The translations under genes were made by a program, and so were the position numbers. The notes under the pieces are model-generated. The model saw only the letters and a program-made list of their open reading frames with translations. It was not told the origin of the DNA and did no database searches. This document shows positions 52,460-63,466 of a DNA stretch of 64,000 nt, in pieces (positions within the stretch are counted from its first letter, which is position 1; every line of letters starts with the position of its first letter). Source of the DNA: Gemmatimonadaceae bacterium (GTDB taxonomy: Bacteria; Gemmatimonadota; Gemmatimonadetes; Gemmatimonadales; Gemmatimonadaceae); contig DASXUN010000021.1 of NCBI GenBank assembly GCA_036504815.1, positions 372,001 to 436,000 of the forward strand, given 5' to 3'.

Positions 52460-54766
52460 CTATTTGATGATGTACTCCTTGGGCGGAATCGCACCCATAA
52501 GATGCGTCACGAAATAATCCCAGCGACGGCGCATCATATAGTTGCCGGCCGCGCCGTATCCGTGGGCCGCGTTCGGAATCAGCAGCAGATCAAAGTCCTT
52601 GTTCGCCTTGATCAGCGCGTCCACCACCAGCATGGTGTTGTCCACCGGGACGTTGTCGTCGGCGGTGCCGTGCGCGAGCAGCAGCTTGCCCTTGAGGTTC
52701 TTGGCCTGCAGCTGGTTCGCCTCGGCGGCGTAGTTGTCGTCGCTGCCGTTGCGCACCAGGAGCCCCTGGTAGCGCTCACCCCAGTCGTCTTCGTAGTTGC
52801 GCTGGTCGTGGTTGCCTGACTCGCTGATGCCGACCTTGAAGAAGTCGGGGTAGCGGAACATCGCGTCGGCGGTGATGAAGCCGCCGCCGCTGTGCCCCCA
52901 CATCGCGGCCTTGTCGATGTCGATCCACGCGTAGCGCTTGGCCAGGTTCTGCATCCCGGCCACCTGGTCCTCGAGCGTGTTGCCGCGTCCCATGCGACCG
53001 TAGTAGTAGTCGTGGAAGCTCTTGCTGCGCCCCGGGCCGCTCCCGCGCCCGTCGATGCTCACCACGATGAACCCGAGCTCGGCCAGCGCCTGCTTGTCGC
53101 CGCGCGCCGCGCTGAAGGCTCGGCTCCCCACGGAACCCGACTGCGGTCCCGGGTAGGCGTTGTTGATGATCGGGTACTTCTTGGTGCTGTCGAAGTTGGT
53201 GGGGCGGAAGAGCTGGCCGTAGATGTCGGTCTTGCCGTCAGCCGCCTTCACGCTGAATAGGATGGGCGGCTTCCAGCCCGCGGCCACCAGCTTGCTGATG
53301 TCGGCCTTCTCGAGCTCCATCACCAGCTTGCCCTTGGCGTCGCGCAGCGCGCTCACCGGCGGGGTGTCGGCGGTGGAATAAGTATCAACCAGATACTTAT
53401 TGTCGGGCGAGAGCCGGATGGTGTGCGTCCCCACGTCGGGGGTGAGCAGCACGGCCGGCCCCTTGCCGTCGAGCGTGGTGCGGAAGGCGTGGGCCAGGTA
53501 CGGGTCCTGCCCCGCCACGCGCCCCTGCGCCAGGTAGGTGATAGTGCGCGCCTTTTCGTCGATGCTGACGATCTCGCTCACCGGCCCTTCGCCGGTGGTG
53601 ATCGCGTTCTTCAGCTGGCCGGTGGTGAGATCATACAGGTAGAGCTGCGACCAGTCATCGCGCTGCGAGTTCCAGATGATCTCGTTCGAGTTCCAGAGCA
53701 CGCGGTAGCCGGTGATGGATTCGAACTGGGTGCTGACCGTTTCCTTGAGCACGTCGCGCACTTCGCCGGTGGCCGTGTTGGCGACGCGGAGGGTGACGCC
53801 CTTGTGGTCGCGCGGGGTGGAGGCGATGGCGAGCATGGAGCCGTCGTCCTTCCACTGCAGGTCGTCCATGGAGATGTCATCGCCGAGCATGGCCCGGTGG
53901 AAGTCCGGGGCCATCTTGAGGCGGGTGACCGTCTTGGACTCCACGTCAATGACGACGCGGTGGATCATGGAGACCACCGAATCGCCCGGGAACGGGTACT
54001 TCCACGATTCCAGCTTCGGGGCGCCCACCTGGTAGCGCACCATATGGAAGTCGGAGAGCTTGCGATCGTCCTGCTGCTGGGTGGCGATCTTCTTTGAATC
54101 CGGCGACCACTTGAGGACGGCGCGGGCGGAGTGGACCCAGCCTGCATTGTCAGTGGCGTAGCCGAAGTTCGGGGTGCCGTCGGTGGTGAGCTGGGTGACG
54201 GCGTTGGTGGCGACGTCGCGGACGTAGAGGTTCCAGTCTCTAATGAAGGCGGCCTTCTTGCCGTCGGGGGAGGTGACCTCGAGGGTGCGAGGGCCGCGGC
54301 GCCCCATCATCCCCGGCATGCCGGTGGCGGCCGCGTCGCCCAACTGCTTGCAGGCGTACGCCTTGAGGTCGCAGGCGTAGCGCTTGCCGGCGGTGCTGAA
54401 GGAGAGCGTATCGCGCTTGGGCGAGAGGTCGGCAGTCATGAAGGGGAGGGCATCTGCCTTGTAGCTCCCCCCTGACGCCGTGTTGACGGCGGCGGCCAAC
54501 TTTGCGTGGTCGAAGAGCGGGGCCGCCTTCTTCTTGGCCGGGTCGACGAGGATCCAGCTGACGCCATCCGGGCGGGTGGCGCGGTAGTAGAACTTCCCGT
54601 CGGGAGTCCACGTGGGATTCACCTGGCCGCCAACGACAAGGGCGTTGACGTTCTGACCGAGCATCTTGACGGCGCGGTCGTAGTCGGCGGTGGTGAGTTG
54701 CTTGTGGCCCTGGGCGGGAAGGGCGAGGGGAAGGGCGAGGGTGAGTATTAGCGAGCTGGAGCGCAT
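52460..54766 (-). CDS. Exported S9 dipeptidyl-peptidase IV-like peptidase
   Basis: From ATG 54766 this 768-aa protein has a signal peptide (MRSSSLILTLALPLALPAQG). The N-terminal two thirds is a DPPIV-type beta-propeller (VNPTWTPDGKFYYRATRPDG, VTSPDGKKAAFIRDWNLYVR); the C-terminal alpha/beta-hydrolase has ISIDGRGSGPGRSKSF-like, AAMWGHSGGGFITA (nucleophile Ser), LLAHGTADDNVPVDNT (Asp) and PNAAHGYG (His). It would cleave dipeptides from peptides in the periplasm. The longer frame upstream lacks a signal. Confidence 0.9.
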   Translation of the reverse strand: MRSSSLILTLALPLALPAQGHKQLTTADYDRAVKMLGQNVNALVVGGQVNPTWTPDGKFYYRATRPDGVSWILVDPAKKKAAPLFDHAKLAAAVNTASGGSYKADALPFMTADLSPKRDTLSFSTAGKRYACDLKAYACKQLGDAAATGMPGMMGRRGPRTLEVTSPDGKKAAFIRDWNLYVRDVATNAVTQLTTDGTPNFGYATDNAGWVHSARAVLKWSPDSKKIATQQQDDRKLSDFHMVRYQVGAPKLESWKYPFPGDSVVSMIHRVVIDVESKTVTRLKMAPDFHRAMLGDDISMDDLQWKDDGSMLAIASTPRDHKGVTLRVANTATGEVRDVLKETVSTQFESITGYRVLWNSNEIIWNSQRDDWSQLYLYDLTTGQLKNAITTGEGPVSEIVSIDEKARTITYLAQGRVAGQDPYLAHAFRTTLDGKGPAVLLTPDVGTHTIRLSPDNKYLVDTYSTADTPPVSALRDAKGKLVMELEKADISKLVAAGWKPPILFSVKAADGKTDIYGQLFRPTNFDSTKKYPIINNAYPGPQSGSVGSRAFSAARGDKQALAELGFIVVSIDGRGSGPGRSKSFHDYYYGRMGRGNTLEDQVAGMQNLAKRYAWIDIDKAAMWGHSGGGFITADAMFRYPDFFKVGISESGNHDQRNYEDDWGERYQGLLVRNGSDDNYAAEANQLQAKNLKGKLLLAHGTADDNVPVDNTMLVVDALIKANKDFDLLLIPNAAHGYGAAGNYMMRRRWDYFVTHLMGAIPPKEYIIK

Positions 54767-54930
54767 GCGGGCCCTATCTATAGAAGAGGGAAGGAATTGA
54801 AGATGGGCGGGGGGAGTGCGAAGCGGCAACTGGATCTTCATCGCAACTAGCAAACCTTTGACTAGCGCTTCGTCTCAGGATCTCGCAGTCTAAACCTCGT
54901 TACGCCGATCTCCAGCGATGTGAGGACCGA

Positions 54931-55677
54931 ATGGAAGCTGGCGGGATCTTCGTCGGACAAATCATCACCGCGGCCGGCCTCATTCTTGGCGTGCTACTCG
55001 CCTACCTGCAGGTGCAAAAGAATCACGCGGCGGCGTTGAAGCTACAGGAAGCACACCTTCGGAACGACCTAAAGCTCAGGCTGTACGATCGCGTCTCAGA
55101 GAGGTTTTCTACCTGCTCCTCTCTGCTTAGCAAAGCGCATTTCGTGCACACAGGGGTCTTCTCGGCATGGCACATGCGCGTGCGGCAAGGGTTCAGTGTA
55201 GCGCCCCAGCAGCTCGCGAGTGAAATGTCGGAGACCGCCCACGCCGGTGCGGCGAGCGTCAACGCCGTCCTCGAGATCGTCGAGCACTACGAGATTGCCT
55301 TTCCGCGTTTCGAGACGATTAGGCGTGAGCTCTCGGAGAAGCACCGAGAGTTGCTGGCAGCGCAGACCGCTCTATGGAACGCGATCATGATGTTCCTTCC
55401 GTTTGCAGATGCCACGACCGGCACGAAGGTAGGTCCTCTTGGATTCCCGACCGAGATCCAGTTGGCGGAGTTCGGATCTTTGCACACCAAGTACCAGGAT
55501 GTCTGCAATGATATCTCCGGATACATGATCGACCTGCAGATTGAAGCGCAGAATGAACTCCTGGGAGAGCTATTCGGGCGTACGGTCCCCCCGCGCAGTC
55601 CGCTGGACCCGGTGCACCAAGTCCTCGCACGCGATCCTTCGGAGGTCAAACAGCGTCCCCCTGGGCGACTCATCTAG
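54931..55677 (+). CDS. Cassette gene 1: membrane-anchored hypothetical protein (248 aa)
   Basis: The N-terminus holds one membrane helix (GGIFVGQIITAAGLILGVLL) followed by a long, mostly helical soluble region with a possible coiled coil (LQVQKNHAAALKLQEAHLRN). No enzymatic motif is seen. I do not recognise a family. It begins 26 bp after a core-like GTTACGC and is followed 9 bp after its stop by attC1. Small membrane-anchored proteins of this sort are common among integron cassettes. Confidence 0.7.
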   Translation: MEAGGIFVGQIITAAGLILGVLLAYLQVQKNHAAALKLQEAHLRNDLKLRLYDRVSERFSTCSSLLSKAHFVHTGVFSAWHMRVRQGFSVAPQQLASEMSETAHAGAASVNAVLEIVEHYEIAFPRFETIRRELSEKHRELLAAQTALWNAIMMFLPFADATTGTKVGPLGFPTEIQLAEFGSLHTKYQDVCNDISGYMIDLQIEAQNELLGELFGRTVPPRSPLDPVHQVLARDPSEVKQRPPGRLI

Positions 55678-55686
55678 CACTCGACG

Positions 55687-55820
55687 CCCTAACGGCGCTT
55701 GGTGCAGCCGGCCGTGCTTCGGAAGCGCGAGCGGGGACACCGCTGAGTGGATGGGCTGGTCAGCAGTGGCCCCGCTCTCACAGTTTATTGGAACGGCCGC
55801 AGCACAAGCCATCGTTAGGC
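55687..55820 (+). other. attC1 (cassette recombination site), 134 bp
   Basis: Terminal boxes CCCTAAC (55687-55693) and GTTAGGC (55814-55820) are inverted, the latter a perfect GTTRRRY. Inside, GCTTG (55697-55701) pairs with CAAGC (55805-55809) and GCCGGCCG with CGGCCGC, offset by unpaired bases as in attC sites; deeper, GAGCGGGG (55729-55736) pairs with CCCCGCTC (55770-55777). The whole element folds on itself. Confidence 0.75.
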
Positions 55821-55841
55821 AACTTAAAACCATCAGATCGA

Positions 55842-56453
55842 ATGAAGAAGAATGGCATCTTCCGATGGATGGCGACCGGCTCGGGCTTCCTAGAGCGCGC
55901 CCGTGTTTCACTTCGAGCATTCGATGAGCAGGGCGACGTCCAGCAACTCTTCGTGGCCGCGCTTATGCTGCGATTTGGCATTGAAGCGCGCCTGTTCGAG
56001 TACATCTATGCCGAGTTGCCAACAGACACCCGTGACGATGACATCAAGAAGATCTCGGACTTCGCCGCGACGAGACTCCTAGCTCGCCTCGTCGAATTGA
56101 ACCCACGAACCACCAAGCAGACGACGCACGTGTTCCGTCGAGCCGATGGTGGACAGGCGTTCGGCTTTCGCTACACACCTGTGACGAAGAGCCTTGCCGC
56201 AATTCACGGTCGCCTTGGTGGGCTTCTCCATTTCAACTACTTCAGGAAGAACTCTGAATGGTACGTCGACCAGCGGCCAGCCGCCGCCAGCGGCAACACT
56301 ATCCTGACCAGTCGCGATCTCATCGCGCAAGGAATCGAGGAACTCGCGCAAGCTACCTCTGGGACACTCCTCAACAACCCGACATTTGCACGAGAAGTCG
56401 CCGCTTTGAGGGAAGACTTGCAGGAACTCTCTACGCAGAACGGAGAAGTGTAA
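55842..56453 (+). CDS. Cassette gene 2: hypothetical protein (203 aa)
   Basis: From ATG 55842 (MKKNGIFRWMATGSGFLERA) the protein is soluble and mostly helical. Stretches such as ARVSLRAFDEQGDVQQLFVA, LRFGIEARLFEYIYAELP and SLAAIHGRLGGLLHFNYFRK suggest an all-alpha, HEPN-like or similar fold, but no R-x4-6-H signature is clear and I do not assign a family. It begins 22 bp after attC1; its stop TAA lies 10 bp before attC2. Visibly lower GC than the chromosomal genes. Confidence 0.7.
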   Translation: MKKNGIFRWMATGSGFLERARVSLRAFDEQGDVQQLFVAALMLRFGIEARLFEYIYAELPTDTRDDDIKKISDFAATRLLARLVELNPRTTKQTTHVFRRADGGQAFGFRYTPVTKSLAAIHGRLGGLLHFNYFRKNSEWYVDQRPAAASGNTILTSRDLIAQGIEELAQATSGTLLNNPTFAREVAALREDLQELSTQNGEV

Positions 56454-56463
56454 CGCGCCAGTT

Positions 56464-56568
56464 GCTTAACAAGCCGCTGCTGCCGACGAACGCAGGTGCA
56501 TTTGGTAGCGGCCGCTCCGCGGCCGCATTCTATTAGAGCGTTCGCAGCAGAACGCCGAGTCGTTATAC
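56464..56568 (+). other. attC2, 105 bp
   Basis: Left box GCTTAAC (56464-56470, perfect RYYYAAC) and right box GTTATAC (56562-56568). CTGCTGC and GAACGC on the left pair with GCGTTCGCAGCAG on the right, with extra unpaired bases on one side; the centre is a GCGGCCGC / GCGGCCGC hairpin. Its 3' half (56504-56556) is nearly identical to that of attC3. Confidence 0.75.
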
Positions 56569-56577
56569 CGATTCAAC

Positions 56578-57321
56578 ATGACCTTTCCGCATCCCGATGA
56601 TTTGGTTGGCATTCTCGCGGACGTGAAGCTTCTCGCGAAACGGTACCTTGCACTCACAGGGCGCCCTCTCGGCGTTACTGGGGAGATCGCGGAATTCGAA
56701 GCCGTCCGGTTGCTAGGCTTGGAGCTCGCGCCCGTGCGCCAATCGGGATGGGATGCGCTCGACCGCGCCACCGGCATTCGGTATCAAATAAAAGGTCGCG
56801 TTCTCAAGCCTGATGCCGGACCCGGGCAACGCCTCGGTTCCCTTACCGCCGCAAAAGAGTGGGACGCGGTGCTCCTCGTGATCCTCGATGAGAACTACGA
56901 GGCTCAGGTCATTTGGGAGGCAGCGCGAGACGCTACGCTGGCACGACTCGAGCGTCCTGGATCGAGAGCCCGCTCCGAACGTGGACAGCTTGGAGTTCAG
57001 GAACTCATCCGCGTCTCGAAGCTGCGGTGGGGCACTCCCTCATCCACGCGACGTCGGCCACTCGTGTCAAATGCCGCGGAGCTGCGATCGGACGGTGCGG
57101 TGCGCTACAAGTTCTCGCGTCTCGGATTCAAGGCTGACATCATCGAGCCGCTTCCTGACGACGGAGTCTTCGAAGTTGAGACTCCCAGAGGTCTCTTCCG
57201 GATGACGAAGCGAGATTTCGCGGTTGTCTTCGCCGCCGTACGCGCCTCCAAGAGCTACCAGGAAGGTCGTCTGTATCATTTTCCGCAGGTGCCGAAGCGC
57301 GCTGAGCGGTTCAGGGTGTAA
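56578..57321 (+). CDS. Cassette gene 3: DUF6998-like restriction-endonuclease-fold protein
   Basis: This 247-aa protein has an N-terminal domain LAKRYLALTGRPLGVTGEIAEFEAVRLL, then a segment with QSGWDALDRATGIRYQIKGR. The order E - D - Q-x-K is that of a PD-(D/E)xK-type nuclease core, and the sequence resembles DUF6998-type proteins. The C-terminal ~90 residues (FSRLGFKADIIEPLPDDGVFEVE) look like a separate small beta-rich domain. Start ATG 56578 is 10 bp after attC2. Nuclease activity is inferred only from the motif. Confidence 0.7.
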   Translation: MTFPHPDDLVGILADVKLLAKRYLALTGRPLGVTGEIAEFEAVRLLGLELAPVRQSGWDALDRATGIRYQIKGRVLKPDAGPGQRLGSLTAAKEWDAVLLVILDENYEAQVIWEAARDATLARLERPGSRARSERGQLGVQELIRVSKLRWGTPSSTRRRPLVSNAAELRSDGAVRYKFSRLGFKADIIEPLPDDGVFEVETPRGLFRMTKRDFAVVFAAVRASKSYQEGRLYHFPQVPKRAERFRV

Positions 57322-57322
57322 G

Positions 57323-57442
57323 TGTCAACGCGCAACGGCATTACAGGTCCATGCGCGCTGATGAGCGCGGGTGTCTTCGGTAGCGGAGGCTGTGCGGCCG
57401 CGTTCTATTTGAGCGTTCGCAGCAGAACGCCATGCGTTAGGC
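57323..57442 (+). other. attC3, ~120 bp (left boundary uncertain)
   Basis: Right box GTTAGGC (57436-57442) is a perfect GTTRRRY. The left box is less clear (TGTCAAC at 57323 or GCGCAAC at 57330). Positions 57379-57431 match attC2 (56504-56556) at 47 of 53 bases, including TGAGCGTTCGCAGCAGAACG-like sequence. The left half pairs poorly, so the element may be chimeric or degraded. Confidence 0.65.
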
Positions 57443-57477
57443 AGTATCGGCATCTCCTCCCTTGACTCCAGATTCCC

Positions 57478-58107
57478 ATGAGTGCAAGTGCGTTTGGCCA
57501 TCGTGCGATCAACCGACCGGACGGAAGCACTGCAGAAGCCTGGTTCGGCTACACGTGCGGACATTGCGGAAACAAGGTCTCAGGTGCCGTTCTCGCATGG
57601 GTGGGCAAGTCGCCTGGGGGTGTCATCCGCTGGCTTCAATGCTCCCAGTGCCACGACGCCTCCGTACAAGCAGACTCCGGCGAGGTTTATCCCGGAGTGG
57701 CCTTCGGTCCCAGTGTGGAAGGGCTCCCGCCAGACGTTGAACGGGCGTACGAAGAGGCTCGCCGTTGCATGTCTGTCAGCGCGCTCACGGCAACCGAGAT
57801 TCTTTGCCGGAAGATTCTCATGCACGTCGCAGTCGATAAGGGAGCCGAGCAAGGCGCCACCTTCGCTTCCTACATCGACCATCTCATCGACGAGGGATAC
57901 GTCACGCCTCCCATGAAGGAGTGGGTGAATCTTATCAAGAAGCACGGCAACGACTCGAACCACCGACTCGAAGCGCCTGACCGTGGACGAGCCGAAGGCA
58001 CCATTTACTTCACGGCGCAGCTGCTGCGAACGGTGTACGAAATGGCGCACCTTGCGACACGTTTCGGCGCTGGGCTGAACGCAAATCCTGCGGTCGGTGA
58101 GGCCTAA
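57478..58107 (+). CDS. Cassette gene 4: DUF4145 protein with zinc ribbon
   Basis: This 209-aa protein starts with a four-Cys zinc ribbon (YTCGHCGNKV and LQCSQCHDAS) and continues with a DUF4145 helical domain: ARRCMSVSALTATEILCRKI, LIDEGYVTPPMKEWVNLIKK, HGNDSNHRLEAP and IYFTAQLLRTVYEM. DUF4145 domains often accompany restriction-modification and other defence genes. It begins 35 bp after attC3, and its stop TAA is embedded in GCCTAAC (58102-58108), a perfect RYYYAAC box, as is common in cassettes. Confidence 0.82.
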   Translation: MSASAFGHRAINRPDGSTAEAWFGYTCGHCGNKVSGAVLAWVGKSPGGVIRWLQCSQCHDASVQADSGEVYPGVAFGPSVEGLPPDVERAYEEARRCMSVSALTATEILCRKILMHVAVDKGAEQGATFASYIDHLIDEGYVTPPMKEWVNLIKKHGNDSNHRLEAPDRGRAEGTIYFTAQLLRTVYEMAHLATRFGAGLNANPAVGEA

Positions 58108-58184
58108 CCCATGTTGGTACCGACGGCGGTAGCTAAAGCAGCGGGCACGGCGGCAGCCAGACGGCATCCGTCATCAAGATGTGA
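58102..58184 (+). other. Possible attC4, left half only
   Basis: A perfect RYYYAAC box (GCCTAAC, 58102-58108) overlaps the DUF4145 stop, but no GTTRRRY partner is visible before the next start at 58185. It may be a degraded attC marking the 3' end of the array. Confidence 0.4.
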
Positions 58185-60185
58185 ATGACAACTCCTGACC
58201 ATCAGTTGCTCGCCCCAGCCTACTTCGAAGCGTCGGCGCCCGACTTTCTTGCAAAGTCGGACAATGAGGTGCTCGGGGAGATGGCAAGGAGTTCTGCGTT
58301 CCCGCTTACAACTGAAGCCATCGGCGCATGGTCGGCCCAGTTGCCAATCATTCGCGAGGCCGTCGCCGGCCTTGAAGGCGTGGTCTTTCTTGAGTTCGAC
58401 ATCCCACGCCTTGGGAGTCGAGTGGACTGCGTCCTTGTCTCCGGAGCAGCGGTCATCCCGATGGAGTTCAAGGTTGGCGCCCGGCACTATAATCGAGAGG
58501 ATTACAACCAATCGTGGGACTACGGCCTAGACCTCAAGAACTTCCATCGGGCAAGCCATAGCGCCGCGATCTTCCCGATTCTCATCTGCACGGCAGCTAC
58601 GACCAGCGACAGCAGATGGCGGGAGCCGCACCGAGACGACGTGTACCCGCCGGCAAAGTGCAACGCTTCCGGCGTTCGCGCTCTTGTGCAGCAGGCAGTA
58701 GCCCTCGCCACGGGCGCAGCGATCGATGGCCCAGCCTGGGGTAGATCACCCTATCAGCCGACTCCAACCATTGTTGAGGCCGCCCAAGCTCTCTACGCGA
58801 GACATTCGGTCGAAGCTATCGCGCGGCACGACGCGGGAGCTCAAAACCTGAGTGTCACGTCGTTCCGGGTGGAACAGATCGTTGACGACGCAGCCCAACG
58901 AGGGCGCAAGGCCATCGTCTTTGTCACGGGTGTACCGGGCGCTGGTAAGACACTCGTCGGGCTCAATGTCGCCACAAGGCGTCGCGATCGGCTAAATCAG
59001 ACTCACGCAGTCTTTCTTTCCGGCAATGTGCCACTCGTACGCGTGCTGCGAGAAGCACTGGTACGAGATGAGCACACGCGGCAAGCCGCAACGCGCGCCA
59101 AGCCCGATCGAGAGCGCAAGGGAGCGATTGCGAATCGCGTCGAGCAGTTCATCCAAAGCGTGCACCACTGGCGAGACGACGGACTGCGGAATTCCGGCGC
59201 CCCCGACGATCACGTCGTCATCTTCGATGAGGCACAGCGTGCATGGGATCGACAGAAGACGGCGGACTTCATGCGCCGCAAACGCGGACTCCATGACTTC
59301 TCACAGTCCGAGCCCGAGTTCCTGCTGAACTATATGAACCGTCGACAAGATTGGGCGGTAGTAATCTGCCTAGTCGGCGGTGGGCAAGAGATCTACGATG
59401 GCGAGGCAGGGATCGGCGGCTGGCTCGATGCCGTTGCTGAGCATTTTGCTGGCTGGGATGTGTACATCTCACCATCCCTCGCCGACTCTGAATACACCGC
59501 GGAGTCAGCAATCGCAAATGTGTCAAGCAGAGCCGCTGTGAATCGTGAGACTGATCTTCACCTAAAGACGTCAATGCGCTCGTTTCGCGCCGAGAACGTT
59601 TCAGCGTTCGTGCGCCAGACACTTGATCTCGAGCTAAGCCAAGCGGCTGAGTCGCTGCGCCAAATGGATCGATATCCATTGGCGCTCACGCGCGATCTGG
59701 CGGCAGCCAAGTCCTGGATACGTGCCAACGCGCGAGGGTCCGAACGGTTCGGACTAGTGGCGTCATCATCGGCCAAGCGACTGAAGCCGTACGCAGTTGA
59801 TGTGCGGGTTGAAGTCGATCCGGTGCATTGGTTCCTGAACGACGCCACGGACACACGCTCGAGTTTCTACCTGGAAGATGCAGCCACTGAGTTTCAGGTA
59901 CAGGGACTCGAACTTGATTGGATCTGCATGAACTGGGACGCCGATCTGCGGCGACATGGCGACGGATGGAACTTCAACGAATTCCGCGTAGATGGCTGGC
60001 GGAAGATCCGACAAGAACGCCGGCAGAGATACCTACTCAATGCGTACCGCGTTCTTCTCACGCGGGCCCGGCAAGGCATGGTGATCTTCGTGCCCGAAGG
60101 GTCGAAGGATGATCCGACGCGGCGCGCTGAGTACTATGATGAGACGTACTCGTATCTGGCCAAGTTGGGTATTGCGCAGGTCTGA
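58185..60185 (+). CDS. DUF2075 nuclease-helicase (Schlafen-like P-loop) protein
   Basis: This 666-aa protein has an N-terminal nuclease-like region (VFLEFDIPRLGSRVDCVLVS then VIPMEFKVGARHYNRED, a D-x(n)-E-x-K arrangement) and a DUF2075/Schlafen-type SF1-like helicase core: VFVTGVPGAGKTLVGLN (Walker A), HVVIFDEAQRAWD (Walker B), WAVVICLVGGGQEIY (motif III), TSMRSFRAENVSAFV and a C-terminal NAYRVLLTRARQGMVIFVPE (motif VI). Related proteins are found in defence islands. It lies 77 bp after cassette gene 4 and before an HNH gene. Defence function is inferred. Confidence 0.82.
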   Translation: MTTPDHQLLAPAYFEASAPDFLAKSDNEVLGEMARSSAFPLTTEAIGAWSAQLPIIREAVAGLEGVVFLEFDIPRLGSRVDCVLVSGAAVIPMEFKVGARHYNREDYNQSWDYGLDLKNFHRASHSAAIFPILICTAATTSDSRWREPHRDDVYPPAKCNASGVRALVQQAVALATGAAIDGPAWGRSPYQPTPTIVEAAQALYARHSVEAIARHDAGAQNLSVTSFRVEQIVDDAAQRGRKAIVFVTGVPGAGKTLVGLNVATRRRDRLNQTHAVFLSGNVPLVRVLREALVRDEHTRQAATRAKPDRERKGAIANRVEQFIQSVHHWRDDGLRNSGAPDDHVVIFDEAQRAWDRQKTADFMRRKRGLHDFSQSEPEFLLNYMNRRQDWAVVICLVGGGQEIYDGEAGIGGWLDAVAEHFAGWDVYISPSLADSEYTAESAIANVSSRAAVNRETDLHLKTSMRSFRAENVSAFVRQTLDLELSQAAESLRQMDRYPLALTRDLAAAKSWIRANARGSERFGLVASSSAKRLKPYAVDVRVEVDPVHWFLNDATDTRSSFYLEDAATEFQVQGLELDWICMNWDADLRRHGDGWNFNEFRVDGWRKIRQERRQRYLLNAYRVLLTRARQGMVIFVPEGSKDDPTRRAEYYDETYSYLAKLGIAQV

Positions 60186-60206
60186 GGCACCCGCTTCTTC
60201 GGTGCC
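60186..60206 (+). terminator. Weak hairpin after the DUF2075 gene
   Basis: GGCACC (60186-60191) pairs with GGTGCC (60201-60206) across a 9-nt loop, followed by AATTT. Possible terminator or attenuator before the HNH gene. Confidence 0.4.
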
Positions 60207-60240
60207 AATTTGATGGTGTGTCTCACAGCCCGCGTGAACT

Positions 60241-61173
60241 GTGAAAGCATACGTTGCGGTTACTGACGGGGACTGGTTTCGGTTTCTGAGTGAACAGCCA
60301 GGAATCGATGAGGTCAACTTCTGGCAGCCTGGTGGTGGACGAGGCTTTAATGTCCTGACACTGGGCGCTCCCCTGCTGTTCAAGCTTCACGCGCCAAACA
60401 ACTTCATCGCTGGTGGAGGGTTCTTCGCGTCTTTCTCGCGGCTACCGATCAGCATCGTCTGGGAGACCTTTGGCGAGAAGAATGGAGTCGGCTCGTATGC
60501 TGCGATGCGAGCCCGCGTTGAACACTATAGGCGAAAGGGCGCGAATCCGCACGAAGACTATGAGATCGGGAACATCATCCTAGAAGACCCGTTCTTTTTG
60601 CCTCGAGAACAGTGGATTCCGGCCCCGACGGACTTCGCGCCAAGTGTAGTACAAGGCAAAGGCTACGATCTGACGCAGCCCGTAGGGCGTGCACTTTGGG
60701 ATGCAGTGATAGCAGCCCGTAGCGAAACGAAGGGTCGAGTTGCAGAGCGACCCGTCCAGATTGATGGGCCGATCTATGGCGAAGCGACACGCGGTCGTGT
60801 GCGGCTCAGGCAGGGCGCCTTTCGCGTGATGGTAACAGACGCTTATAGTCGGCGATGTGCCATTTCTGGTGAAAAGGCACTGCCCGTCCTTCAAGCGGCA
60901 CACATCAGACCAGTAGCAGAGGGCGGGCAGCATCGCCTAGACAACGGCCTGTTGCTTCGCTCAGACGTGCACACGCTCTTTGACCGGGGATATATCACTG
61001 TCACGCCCGAGCACGAAGTGCTCGTGGCCAGCAAAGCGCTGAAAGATGATTTCGACAATGGCGAGCCATATGCGCCGTTTCACGGGAGCAGGATTCTGTT
61101 GCCGGGAAATGAGGATGAGCGACCGTCCCGCGAGCAACTGCAGTGGCATAACGACACATTGTTCCGCGGTTAG
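60241..61173 (+). CDS. HNH endonuclease with N-terminal EVE/PUA-like domain
   Basis: This 310-aa protein starts at GTG 60241. Residues ~1-100 (VAVTDGDWFRFLSEQPGIDE, FVNFW-like strands and LLFKLHAPNNFIAGGGFFAS) resemble an EVE/ASCH (PUA-like) domain. The C-terminus is an HNH_2 domain: FRVMVTDAYSRRCAISGEKA, QAAHIRPVAEGGQHRLDNGL and DVHTLFDRGYITV. EVE-HNH fusions are known as candidate modified-DNA-dependent restriction enzymes. The MazG-like gene follows within 8 bp. The N-terminal assignment is by resemblance only. Confidence 0.78.
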   Translation: MKAYVAVTDGDWFRFLSEQPGIDEVNFWQPGGGRGFNVLTLGAPLLFKLHAPNNFIAGGGFFASFSRLPISIVWETFGEKNGVGSYAAMRARVEHYRRKGANPHEDYEIGNIILEDPFFLPREQWIPAPTDFAPSVVQGKGYDLTQPVGRALWDAVIAARSETKGRVAERPVQIDGPIYGEATRGRVRLRQGAFRVMVTDAYSRRCAISGEKALPVLQAAHIRPVAEGGQHRLDNGLLLRSDVHTLFDRGYITVTPEHEVLVASKALKDDFDNGEPYAPFHGSRILLPGNEDERPSREQLQWHNDTLFRG

Positions 61174-61181
61174 GAGGAAGG

Positions 61182-61535
61182 ATGGCCGATCGACTCGCTG
61201 AAATAGTCACACGCCTCCGCGAGTTTGTCGCCGAGCGTGACTGGGCGCAGTTTCATGACCCCAAGAACCTCGCGATGGCGGTTGCGAGCGAGGCGGGGGA
61301 ACTGCTAGCGGAGTATCGGTGGGTCTCAAGCACCGAAGCAGATGCCTGGTCCAAAGATCCGGCTAACCGGAATCGCGTCGCGATGGAGGCGGCGGACGTC
61401 GGAATAGCGTTGTTACTGCTTTGTGATCGCATCGGCGTTGATCTGCCGAACGCGATTGGCCAGAAGATCGAGCTCAACGCGCAGAACTATCCCGTAAATG
61501 CCTCTCGGGGCCGCGCTCTAAGGCCGGAGCTCTAG
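61182..61535 (+). CDS. MazG-like nucleotide pyrophosphohydrolase
   Basis: This 117-aa protein fits the all-alpha NTP-PPase (RS21-C6/dCTP pyrophosphatase) fold: HDPKNLAMAVASEAGELLAE (E-x2-E metal site) and VAMEAADVGIALLLLCDRIG (E-x2-D). It hydrolyses NTPs or dNTPs to NMP and PPi. The start has AGGAGGAAGG upstream and lies 8 bp after the HNH gene, so they are coupled. Nucleotide depletion could complement restriction during phage attack; that is inferred. Confidence 0.82.
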   Translation: MADRLAEIVTRLREFVAERDWAQFHDPKNLAMAVASEAGELLAEYRWVSSTEADAWSKDPANRNRVAMEAADVGIALLLLCDRIGVDLPNAIGQKIELNAQNYPVNASRGRALRPEL

Positions 61536-61565
61536 GTATCGGTTATCAGACTGTGCTGCGTCGTT

Positions 61566-61913
61566 TTAGCGGCTGTCACCCTCGCAATACGGACACTGCT
61601 CATACAAGTCGCTGTCCCACGCAGCATCACATGTGTCGCATACCTCAAGAGCCGTATCGGGTGCTTCGTCCACAATGACGTCGTGTGGCACAGGCTTGGC
61701 ACTACTGCAGTACGCCAGCCGATTCACCAGATGATAGCCGGACGTGAGCAACGGGCCGAACGGACCGTCCACGAGGGTCCATAGCGTGCGCGACTTGCGA
61801 TGGGCGCGAATAACACCGGGATCGATGACGCCGGTGCGCAGTGCTGGTAACTCGCTGATCGGGCCGAACTCGGCCGAAATCGCATCGGGCGACATCAGAC
61901 GTTGAATGGTCAT
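61566..61913 (-). CDS. Hypothetical protein with C-terminal zinc ribbon (115 aa)
   Basis: The protein starts MTIQRLMSPDAISAEFGPIS and has RTLWTLVDGPFGPLLTSGYH in the centre. The C-terminal VCDTCDAAWDSDLYEQCPYC segment holds two C-x2-C pairs, as in a rubredoxin-like or zinc-ribbon fold. I do not recognise a family. It is convergent with the MazG-like gene. Confidence 0.7.
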   Translation of the reverse strand: MTIQRLMSPDAISAEFGPISELPALRTGVIDPGVIRAHRKSRTLWTLVDGPFGPLLTSGYHLVNRLAYCSSAKPVPHDVIVDEAPDTALEVCDTCDAAWDSDLYEQCPYCEGDSR

Positions 61914-62319
61914 ATCGTTTGCCCGTAGGGGTTCTTCTGTTGTTGTTCGGCGGCTCCGTTAGGGCATACGTCGCGCGCTCTTTCGGCGTAACGCAAGGGA
62001 GCACTGTGTGCTGGGCATAAGCGACTCCCGTGGCTAGTACGTGCAATGTGCCGTCTAGGCACTGAAACGGAGACAGCGCCAGCATTCCAAATGCGAGGGC
62101 GAATATCGGGATGGAAGCGGTGACGCTGACTCAGCCTGCGACGTGCTCAATGTGAGACGTCATACGCGTGAACGCGAATCATCCAGCCGCTTGCGGAGCA
62201 CCTCACGTTCAAAATATGCGGGCAACAGAAGACTCCCAGCGACCTTTCGATCGCCGGAAGTCAGGTTGCGCTCGCGGGCTGGTGCTCTCTTTCTCGCCCG
62301 TATTTGCGCGACTACGTCG
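61914..62319. other. Gene-poor gap
   Basis: About 400 bp without a convincing gene. Only short frames occur. CGTTAGGGC at 61957 and GGCGTAACGC at 61984 loosely resemble cassette core boxes, but no paired palindrome is evident. The region presumably holds the promoter of the 115-aa gene and the 3' end of the lipoprotein transcript. Confidence 0.5.
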
Positions 62320-63171
62320 CTACTGCTTCTTGCTGCTGCCGAACTCGTCCGGCAGGGTCGGTCCTCCCCAGCCCAGGTTTCTTGCGGCAGCCCAACTGAT
62401 ATTGTTGAACCTCAAATCGAACACGTAGTAACCGTTGGACGTTGGCGACGTGGTGCTCTCGTTGCGGAATATGCCGCGGAAATACCCGCTGTAGTCCGTC
62501 GCGTTCTTGGTATTCCTGTAGAAGCCCTTTGGATTCTCGATCCCGGACAGGCCGATGGCGACGAGTTCATAGTCGTAGGTCAGGAACGTGCCCCTGGTTA
62601 CCTCGCCACTTCCGGGCTGTCCGCAAGCGTTCCACAACCGGGCGTAATCTTGGGGATCTTCTCTTGAAGGATAGGTCGCGTTCCGACCCTTGACGGTTAC
62701 CGTGAATGTCTCCAGGTCCTTGCTCCACCATGCGCTCTGGTTTTGCCAGGTGTCGGCATTCTCGTCGGCCATCTGAGCAAAGCCTTCGTTGACGTTGCTC
62801 GGGTTCGCTCTGCCGTCGTTTGCGAACCAGTTGGTCAGGACGACGTTATTGTCGATGTAGTACTCCGGCGCATTCCTGACCACGAAGAGCGCACCGTCCC
62901 GCTGCGGCCACGCGACGTCAGAGCAGCGTGCGTTGCGCCCGCTCTTTGCGTCGGCCCACGTGTCGTACACTGACACGCTGCCGGTGTAGCCGAACCGCTC
63001 GGACGACGCGTAGAAGTGGTCGCCGCCCGCTGACGCACTCTGTCCTTGCGACTGGAAGGCCGTGGACTGCCGTGCCACCGCGGCCTCGTTGCCGGCTATA
63101 CTCGTCGGCTCCGTCGTGCATCCAGTTGAAGTCAGCACGACCGCTGCGACAATCGCTGCGGAATATCTCAT
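62320..63171 (-). CDS. Hypothetical lipoprotein (283 aa)
   Basis: The N-terminus MRYSAAIVAAVVLTSTGCTT is a lipoprotein signal with the lipobox Cys at STGC. The mature part is rich in Gly, Ser, Asn and aromatic residues (GYTGSVSVYDTWADAKSGRN, WQNQSAWWSKDLETFTV) and looks beta-rich. Two Cys outside the signal (ARCSDVAW and LWNACGQPG) could form a disulfide. No family recognised. It ends in KKQ close to a low-complexity region. Lower GC than the chromosomal genes, so probably acquired. Confidence 0.7.
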   Translation of the reverse strand: MRYSAAIVAAVVLTSTGCTTEPTSIAGNEAAVARQSTAFQSQGQSASAGGDHFYASSERFGYTGSVSVYDTWADAKSGRNARCSDVAWPQRDGALFVVRNAPEYYIDNNVVLTNWFANDGRANPSNVNEGFAQMADENADTWQNQSAWWSKDLETFTVTVKGRNATYPSREDPQDYARLWNACGQPGSGEVTRGTFLTYDYELVAIGLSGIENPKGFYRNTKNATDYSGYFRGIFRNESTTSPTSNGYYVFDLRFNNISWAAARNLGWGGPTLPDEFGSSKKQ

Positions 63172-63466
63172 CTCTCGCCTACCTCAGAAATTGAAGGACA
63201 CCTGTGGTGAAGAGCGATTAGTTCGGGGCGATCAATACCACCTCACTGTCAAAGGGGCGTCAGGGCGCCTACTGCGTGATTCCTTAGAACGGCTATCTCT
63301 TTACGCCGTGCTGGAGTGTGTAGAGGTTTCCCTCGCCCGGTGTAAGGGTTTCGAATGAACTTCCGCCTCCGTCCTCGTGTGCCTCGCCGTCACTGAGAAG
63401 CGCTGCTCCGCGCGGCAGTCGCACTGCGTGCTAACGGTCGATTACCAGCTAGCTTCCTTCCACTGA
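63172..63466. other. Intergenic region before recQ
   Basis: About 295 bp with no gene-like frame. It presumably carries the recQ promoter and the divergent lipoprotein promoter. A GCGTGCTAACGG string at 63427 loosely resembles a cassette core box but has no pair. Confidence 0.4.

Follow-up and report, generated by a model that had tools for sequence, protein, structure and literature searches.

How a row of integron gene cassettes comes to stand in a bacterial chromosome with no integrase gene beside it is the question raised by the 64-kb stretch of Gemmatimonadaceae DNA analysed here (referred to as the window), which belongs to a draft genome of 31 contigs. Four gene cassettes, each on the plus strand, form an array at positions 54900-58181 of the window, between genes for an S9 peptidase and a helicase. 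No intI was found in the 64-kb window by tblastn with two IntI proteins, and a Rfam gathering search and a tRNA scan of the window gave no matches.

Layout of the array and its attC sites

The features of the locus are as follows:

52460-54766, minus strand: S9 (DPP IV-type) peptidase gene, left neighbour (Pfam DPPIV_N/Peptidase_S9)
54767-54899: intergenic DNA left of the crossover, 133 bp, probably native
54885-54906, plus strand: attI-core-like simple site GCAGTCTAAACCTCG|TTACGCC, crossover between 54899 and 54900
54900-55814, plus strand: cassette 1, borders at G|TT boxes (ORF 54931-55677, 248 aa, hydrophobic N-terminus)
55687-55822, plus strand: long-hairpin (type 2) attC of cassette 1 (R2 87.7 bits)
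55815-56562, plus strand: cassette 2 (ORF 55842-56453, 203 aa)
56463-56570, plus strand: attC of cassette 2, type 1 (R1 117.8 bits)
56563-57436, plus strand: cassette 3 (ORF 56578-57321, 247 aa, type II methyl-directed restriction enzyme-like)
57337-57444, plus strand: type 1 attC of cassette 3 with a diverged left half (R1 62.9 bits)
57437-58181, plus strand: cassette 4, truncated 3' end (ORF 57478-58107, 209 aa, DUF4145)
58102-58181, plus strand: type 2 attC reduced to its left half (leave-window-out profile; R2 only 12.1 bits)
58185-60185, plus strand: SLFN-g3/PDC-S41 helicase gene, right neighbour (Pfam 8.9e-76, PADLOC PDC-S41 1.5e-264)

The crossover triplets (G|TT) lie at 54899, 55814, 56562 and 57436, with the ORFs of cassettes 1-4 starting 31, 28, 15 and 41 bp past them. 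The initial annotation had described four unrelated plus-strand genes, each beginning 10-45 bp past a GTTRRRY-like box, and this spacing was reproduced as 15-41 bp from the triplet. The stop codon that it had placed within a GCCTAAC motif (58103-58109) is real and belongs to the cassette 4 ORF. It had further proposed that every gene is followed by an imperfect palindrome or an RYYYAAC box; three full attC sites do occur, but the left half of the third has diverged and only a left half remains of the fourth.

For the identification of attC sites, training sets of eight shorter-type (type 1) and eight longer-type (type 2) sites were assembled from the same genome and its relatives, and from the aligned sets two covariance models were built, R1 for type 1 and R2 for type 2. 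Using these models, matches were obtained in the window at 55687-55822, 56463-56570 and 57337-57444, all on the plus strand. The first two sites had been included in the training sets (of R2 and R1, respectively) and the third in neither; as a non-training site it was matched by R1 with 62.9 bits and an E-value of 1.6e-15. Covariance matches at 55687-55820 and 56464-56568 had been named in advance as a check on the cassette reading, and they were found with 87.7 (R2) and 117.8 bits (R1). Since two window sites formed part of the training sets, the test was repeated over the 64 kb with sequence profiles lacking any window sequence. These leave-window-out profiles matched the first attC at 9.6e-6, the second at 1.3e-30 and the third at 6.8e-21, as well as a half site at 58104-58150 (E 3.4e-6), and the remaining above-threshold matches in the window were cross-matches inside the four sites. 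Because the fourth site is matched only as the left half of a long-type attC, cassette 4 is read as truncated.

The consensus folds of both types correspond to the attC hairpin. That of type 1 has two unpaired (extrahelical) bases on the R''-L'' arm at columns 19 and 26, 7 columns apart, and that of type 2 has eight pairs which are maintained through changes on both sides. Compared with shuffled sequences, the hairpin of the first attC gave a z of about -4 with 0 of 200 shuffles as good, and for that of the second z lay between about -2.5 and -2.8. Taken on their own, the third and fourth sites did not stand out from shuffles. With three attC sites of 62.9-117.8 bits less than 1 kb apart, the locus is a CALIN as commonly delimited (at least two same-strand attC less than 4 kb apart), and the earlier reading as a cassette array or CALIN is borne out by both the covariance models and the leave-window-out profiles. 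The four window genes are true integron gene cassettes, distant from intI, and mobility through attC x attI recombination by IntI is predicted for the array.

The integrase and intI-less attI sites

Of the six tyrosine recombinases that the genome encodes, that on contig C27 belongs to the integron integrases. It is full-length (TIGR02249 419.1 bits, cut-off 265) and possesses the added domain of IntI, the WQWVFPA...RHH region having been aligned in nine relatives. The integrase had been supposed to be elsewhere or lost, and with intI found on C27 at 419 bits the former was correct and the latter was not. The same chromosomal stretch accompanies intI in three congeners (G120, G127, G128); a gene within this stretch is, from our reading of its ORF translation, presumably glutaminyl-tRNA synthetase-like. 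The attI lies downstream of the intI stop codon, with intI and cassettes read in one direction, and conserved attI boxes and cores occur just 3' of intI on the same strand in G120, G127 and G128, and more loosely in other genera. Across the family, an IntI above the cut-off was detected in 93 of 179 genomes, compared with none of 14 control genomes. Some genomes carry at least two full-length intI genes at separate loci, for example G127 (L076, L077).

At the end of contig C27 an IS3-like element interrupts the array, and contig C20 starts with the matching IS end (L007 1-140 on C27, L105 1-160 on C20); these two contig ends probably represent one locus. No obvious target duplication was formed at the flanks of the element. 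Contig C20 holds one full attC and one that is internally deleted; in the latter (L105 about 476-520) the inner hairpin is gone, so that almost nothing separates the R''-L'' half from R'. On contig C15 (L106 6413-6520, minus strand) a solitary attC remnant was seen, its R boxes decayed; it neighbours a trypsin-like gene, and a phage-type tyrosine recombinase lies about 1.6 kb away.

On contig C4, an array of five same-strand attCs starts with a complete attI and no intI, and no IntI gene was found within 19 kb around the array. Over 52 bp its attI shares 88% identity with the C27 attI beside intI, and the attI region includes boxes which in G022 are found within the 3' end of a real intI. Further intI-less attI sites of this kind, here called docks, were found in G120 (two), G121, G123, G127 and G129. 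The dock at the amylase/esterase locus is common to G000, G120, G127 and G129, whereas G122 and G125 lack it. Where the sequence allows the first cassettes to be read (G000, G120, G129), they are not the same; the G127 contig stops at the core. Among seven docks of the window's genus, the boxes are 64-95% conserved (core 95%) and the spacers 38-49%. No intI was found in the dock-bearing drafts G121, G123, G129 and G056, and some docks without a detected intI in their draft genome may be dead relics.

It was also considered whether the C4 array is a continuation of the C27 integron split off by assembly. This was rejected, as C4 runs from the amylase/esterase gene into attI with no contig break; it is also ruled out by the orthologous locus in other species and by a complete genome with the same layout.

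That genome is G045, one of five Gemmatimonas genomes in which docks were found (G045, G056, G057, G063, G068). In its one complete contig a single intI locus is found around position 4315487. Two docks lacking intI lie around 4665081 and 4679738; behind the first come at least four attCs on the strand of the dock, and behind the second at least six. The two docks share 83-87% identity with each other and with the attI of their own intI (own attI: 83-85%, 130 columns), 85% with a dock of G068, which is probably a close species, and 52-66% with the attI sites of more distant species. Given one intI locus and two docks in a complete genome, the docks are no assembly artefact.

A number of smaller observations were made at these sites. 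Docks at different loci begin at nearly one point of the former intI 3' end, around CACCCACGTTAGGCTGACCGG (left borders at L017 about 7424, L122 about 377, L138 about 508 and L124 about 7130), and these borders often lie close after the stop codon of a host gene, as though the dock had been moved whole. A partial match to the long-type attC hairpin lies 3 kb past the C4 array (C4:179732-179812; L017 14733-14813). In G121 (L069 8836-9830), an IS110-type transposase gene ends about 15 bp past the attI crossover of an intI-less dock, with an attC array nearby on the opposite strand.

The insertion site in the window and in relatives

The protein of the S9 peptidase gene has counterparts of 82-89% identity in five congeners. 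About 130-137 bp separate the S9 start from the helicase start in G120, G124 and G128, with no cassettes between, and in G126 the S9 gene adjoins recQ. As S9 and helicase genes are adjacent without cassettes in three congeners, the window array is an insertion. None of the cassette genes was found as an ordinary gene between the same neighbours in syntenic relatives, an outcome by which the initial annotation had proposed to be judged.

The left flank (133 bp, from the S9 start to the first crossover) was compared with the corresponding gaps: against the whole gap of G124, 0 of 1000 shuffles were as good, and against that of G128, 1 of 1000, with no match to the intergenic region of G120. When only the last 64 bp left of the crossover were compared with the empty site of relatives, 41 and 93 of 1000 shuffles were as good, and the match of this part is not convincing. 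These alignments make it probable that the left flank is native; the cassettes would have entered directly before the helicase start codon, at a putative pre-insertion site.

The left edge of the array, GCAGTCTAAACCTCGTTACG, is the sole match to GCAGTCTAANNNNCGTTA in the 64-kb window, even with two mismatches allowed. A profile of the docks likewise gave a single window match, at 54862-54908, which is weak (E 0.36). Upstream attI boxes were not found at the window site, which has the bare core GCAGTCTAAACCTCG|TTACG only. Given a unique core without upstream boxes, the site is read as a secondary-site insertion and not as a deleted integron.

The interval between S9 and recQ (window 54767-63466) is a variable spot in the genus. 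Its length is about 150 bp in G126; in G120, where it includes the helicase gene, it is about 2.3 kb; and in the window it contains helicase, HNH and MazG-like genes as well as the cassettes.

Origin of the array and its cassette genes

We consider it probable that the window holds a four-cassette CALIN made in trans by the genome's own IntI, in a family that appears to use one intI with several docks. IntI would have acted in trans on the folded single-stranded attC of circular cassettes, recombining it with the attI-core-like site, in double-stranded form, that immediately precedes the helicase start codon; the cut would fall between G and TT. Further cassettes would have entered after the first, and the right end of the array would have decayed to leave half an attC. 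The docks would be loading stations, that is, complete intI-less attI sites at fixed chromosomal places filled in trans, of which the window site may be a rougher, secondary version. The integrase-free copies of the landing site in the same bacterium and in its relatives suggest that one enzyme serves several landing sites, and service in trans is the reading to which box conservation and the different cassettes at orthologous docks point. With modest confidence, and on sequence comparison, we extend this to Gemmatimonadaceae as a whole: one intI may serve several complete intI-less attI sites in trans, with selection keeping these sites at conserved loci and each loading and exchanging its own cassettes.

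A different history would make the window array the remnant of a complete integron from which intI and the upstream attI boxes were deleted, and the docks relics left after successive loss of intI. Docks in the window's genus do retain the terminal portion of the intI coding sequence together with attI (a motif lying within the real intI 3' end in G022), and several dock-bearing drafts have no detected intI. However, the S9-helicase gap of relatives is about 137 bp with no att boxes, the window has neither intI nor the full attI box set, dock boxes are conserved whereas dock spacers are not, and orthologous docks hold different cassettes; we regard loss from a complete integron as unlikely. 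Arrival of the cassettes as a block on another mobile element (transposon, IS or genomic island), and not through IntI, appears more doubtful still. It would accord with the variability of the S9-recQ interval, where HNH and MazG-like genes also occur, and with the IS3-like element interrupting the main array, but the left border lies exactly at a G|TT crossover behind an attI-core-like sequence, and neither border of the array showed a transposase, an integrase or a tRNA. Ordinary operon genes with chance palindromes, as the close spacing and single strand of the genes might suggest, are hardly credible given leave-window-out profile matches to 1e-30 and near-identical attC sites in the C4 array. 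This operon reading is refuted by those profiles together with the absence of the cassette genes between the same neighbours in syntenic relatives.

The usual view of CALINs is that they are degraded integrons or the product of off-target scatter. Among three proposed routes to them is off-target insertion by an IntI located elsewhere (PMC8618304). Integrons in Gemmatimonadota are already known: the phylum is listed as integron-bearing (PMC8618304) and a Gemmatirosa replicon carries a large array (PMC9024848), so that the remark of the initial annotation that arrays outside Proteobacteria are poorly described is only partly right. The window array agrees with CALINs in the usage of IntegronFinder (PMC9024848) in having at least two close attC, single-gene cassettes on one strand and no adjoining intI, but it starts at an attI-core-like site and the C4 array with a complete attI. 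Off-target secondary or attG insertion (PMC10127599; Loot et al. 2024 via PMC12444791) likewise involves a non-integron site and a G|TT junction; here, by contrast, insertion is deduced from a natural genome and relatives without it, and the window site resembles the host attI core. In Xanthomonas, one intI locus with CALINs at several conserved chromosomal loci is already known, whereas an attI at the CALIN start is not mentioned in the accessible portion of that paper (PMC12444791) and the docks here have conserved attI boxes. The one earlier attI-bearing CALIN found in the literature is that of a Shewanella prophage (PMC9892861), where an attI matching that of a complete integron starts an intI-less array; it is a single case, whereas docks recur family-wide, at orthologous loci and in a complete genome. 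Archaeal integrons (PMC9668308) share with Gemmatimonadaceae an attI immediately downstream of intI but belong to other organisms, and the extra intI-less copies are found in Gemmatimonadaceae.

In the literature searched, no text combining Gemmatimonas with integron and cassette was found. As far as that literature shows, the family-wide occurrence of attI docks that lack intI, with both boxes and loci conserved and with a complete genome among the carriers, is apparently new. Programs searching for intI and attC only will miss docks, and in IntegronFinder 2.0 the attI search is off by default, only class 1 attI being known (PMC9024848). If arrays that have a conserved attI of their own are loaded in trans by one integrase, some of the CALINs in public genomes would be functional loading stations, and integrons could be distributed systems.

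As regards the genes loaded at the window site, cassettes 1 and 2 gave no Pfam family, no NCBIfam family above cut-off and no PADLOC family. The cassette 3 protein matched PADLOC mREase_II (E 3.6e-38), and the cassette 4 protein matched Pfam DUF4145 (5.5e-12) and, weakly, PADLOC PD-T7-4. Beyond the array follow the gene of the PDC-S41/SLFN-type helicase and genes encoding HNH and MazG-like proteins. Of the four loaded genes, two are phage-defence-like, one strongly and one weakly, and stand immediately ahead of a resident defence helicase. Judged from these matches, the array likely serves to load defence genes ahead of a resident defence gene, and the position of such genes before the helicase fits cassette loading as a route to defence islands.
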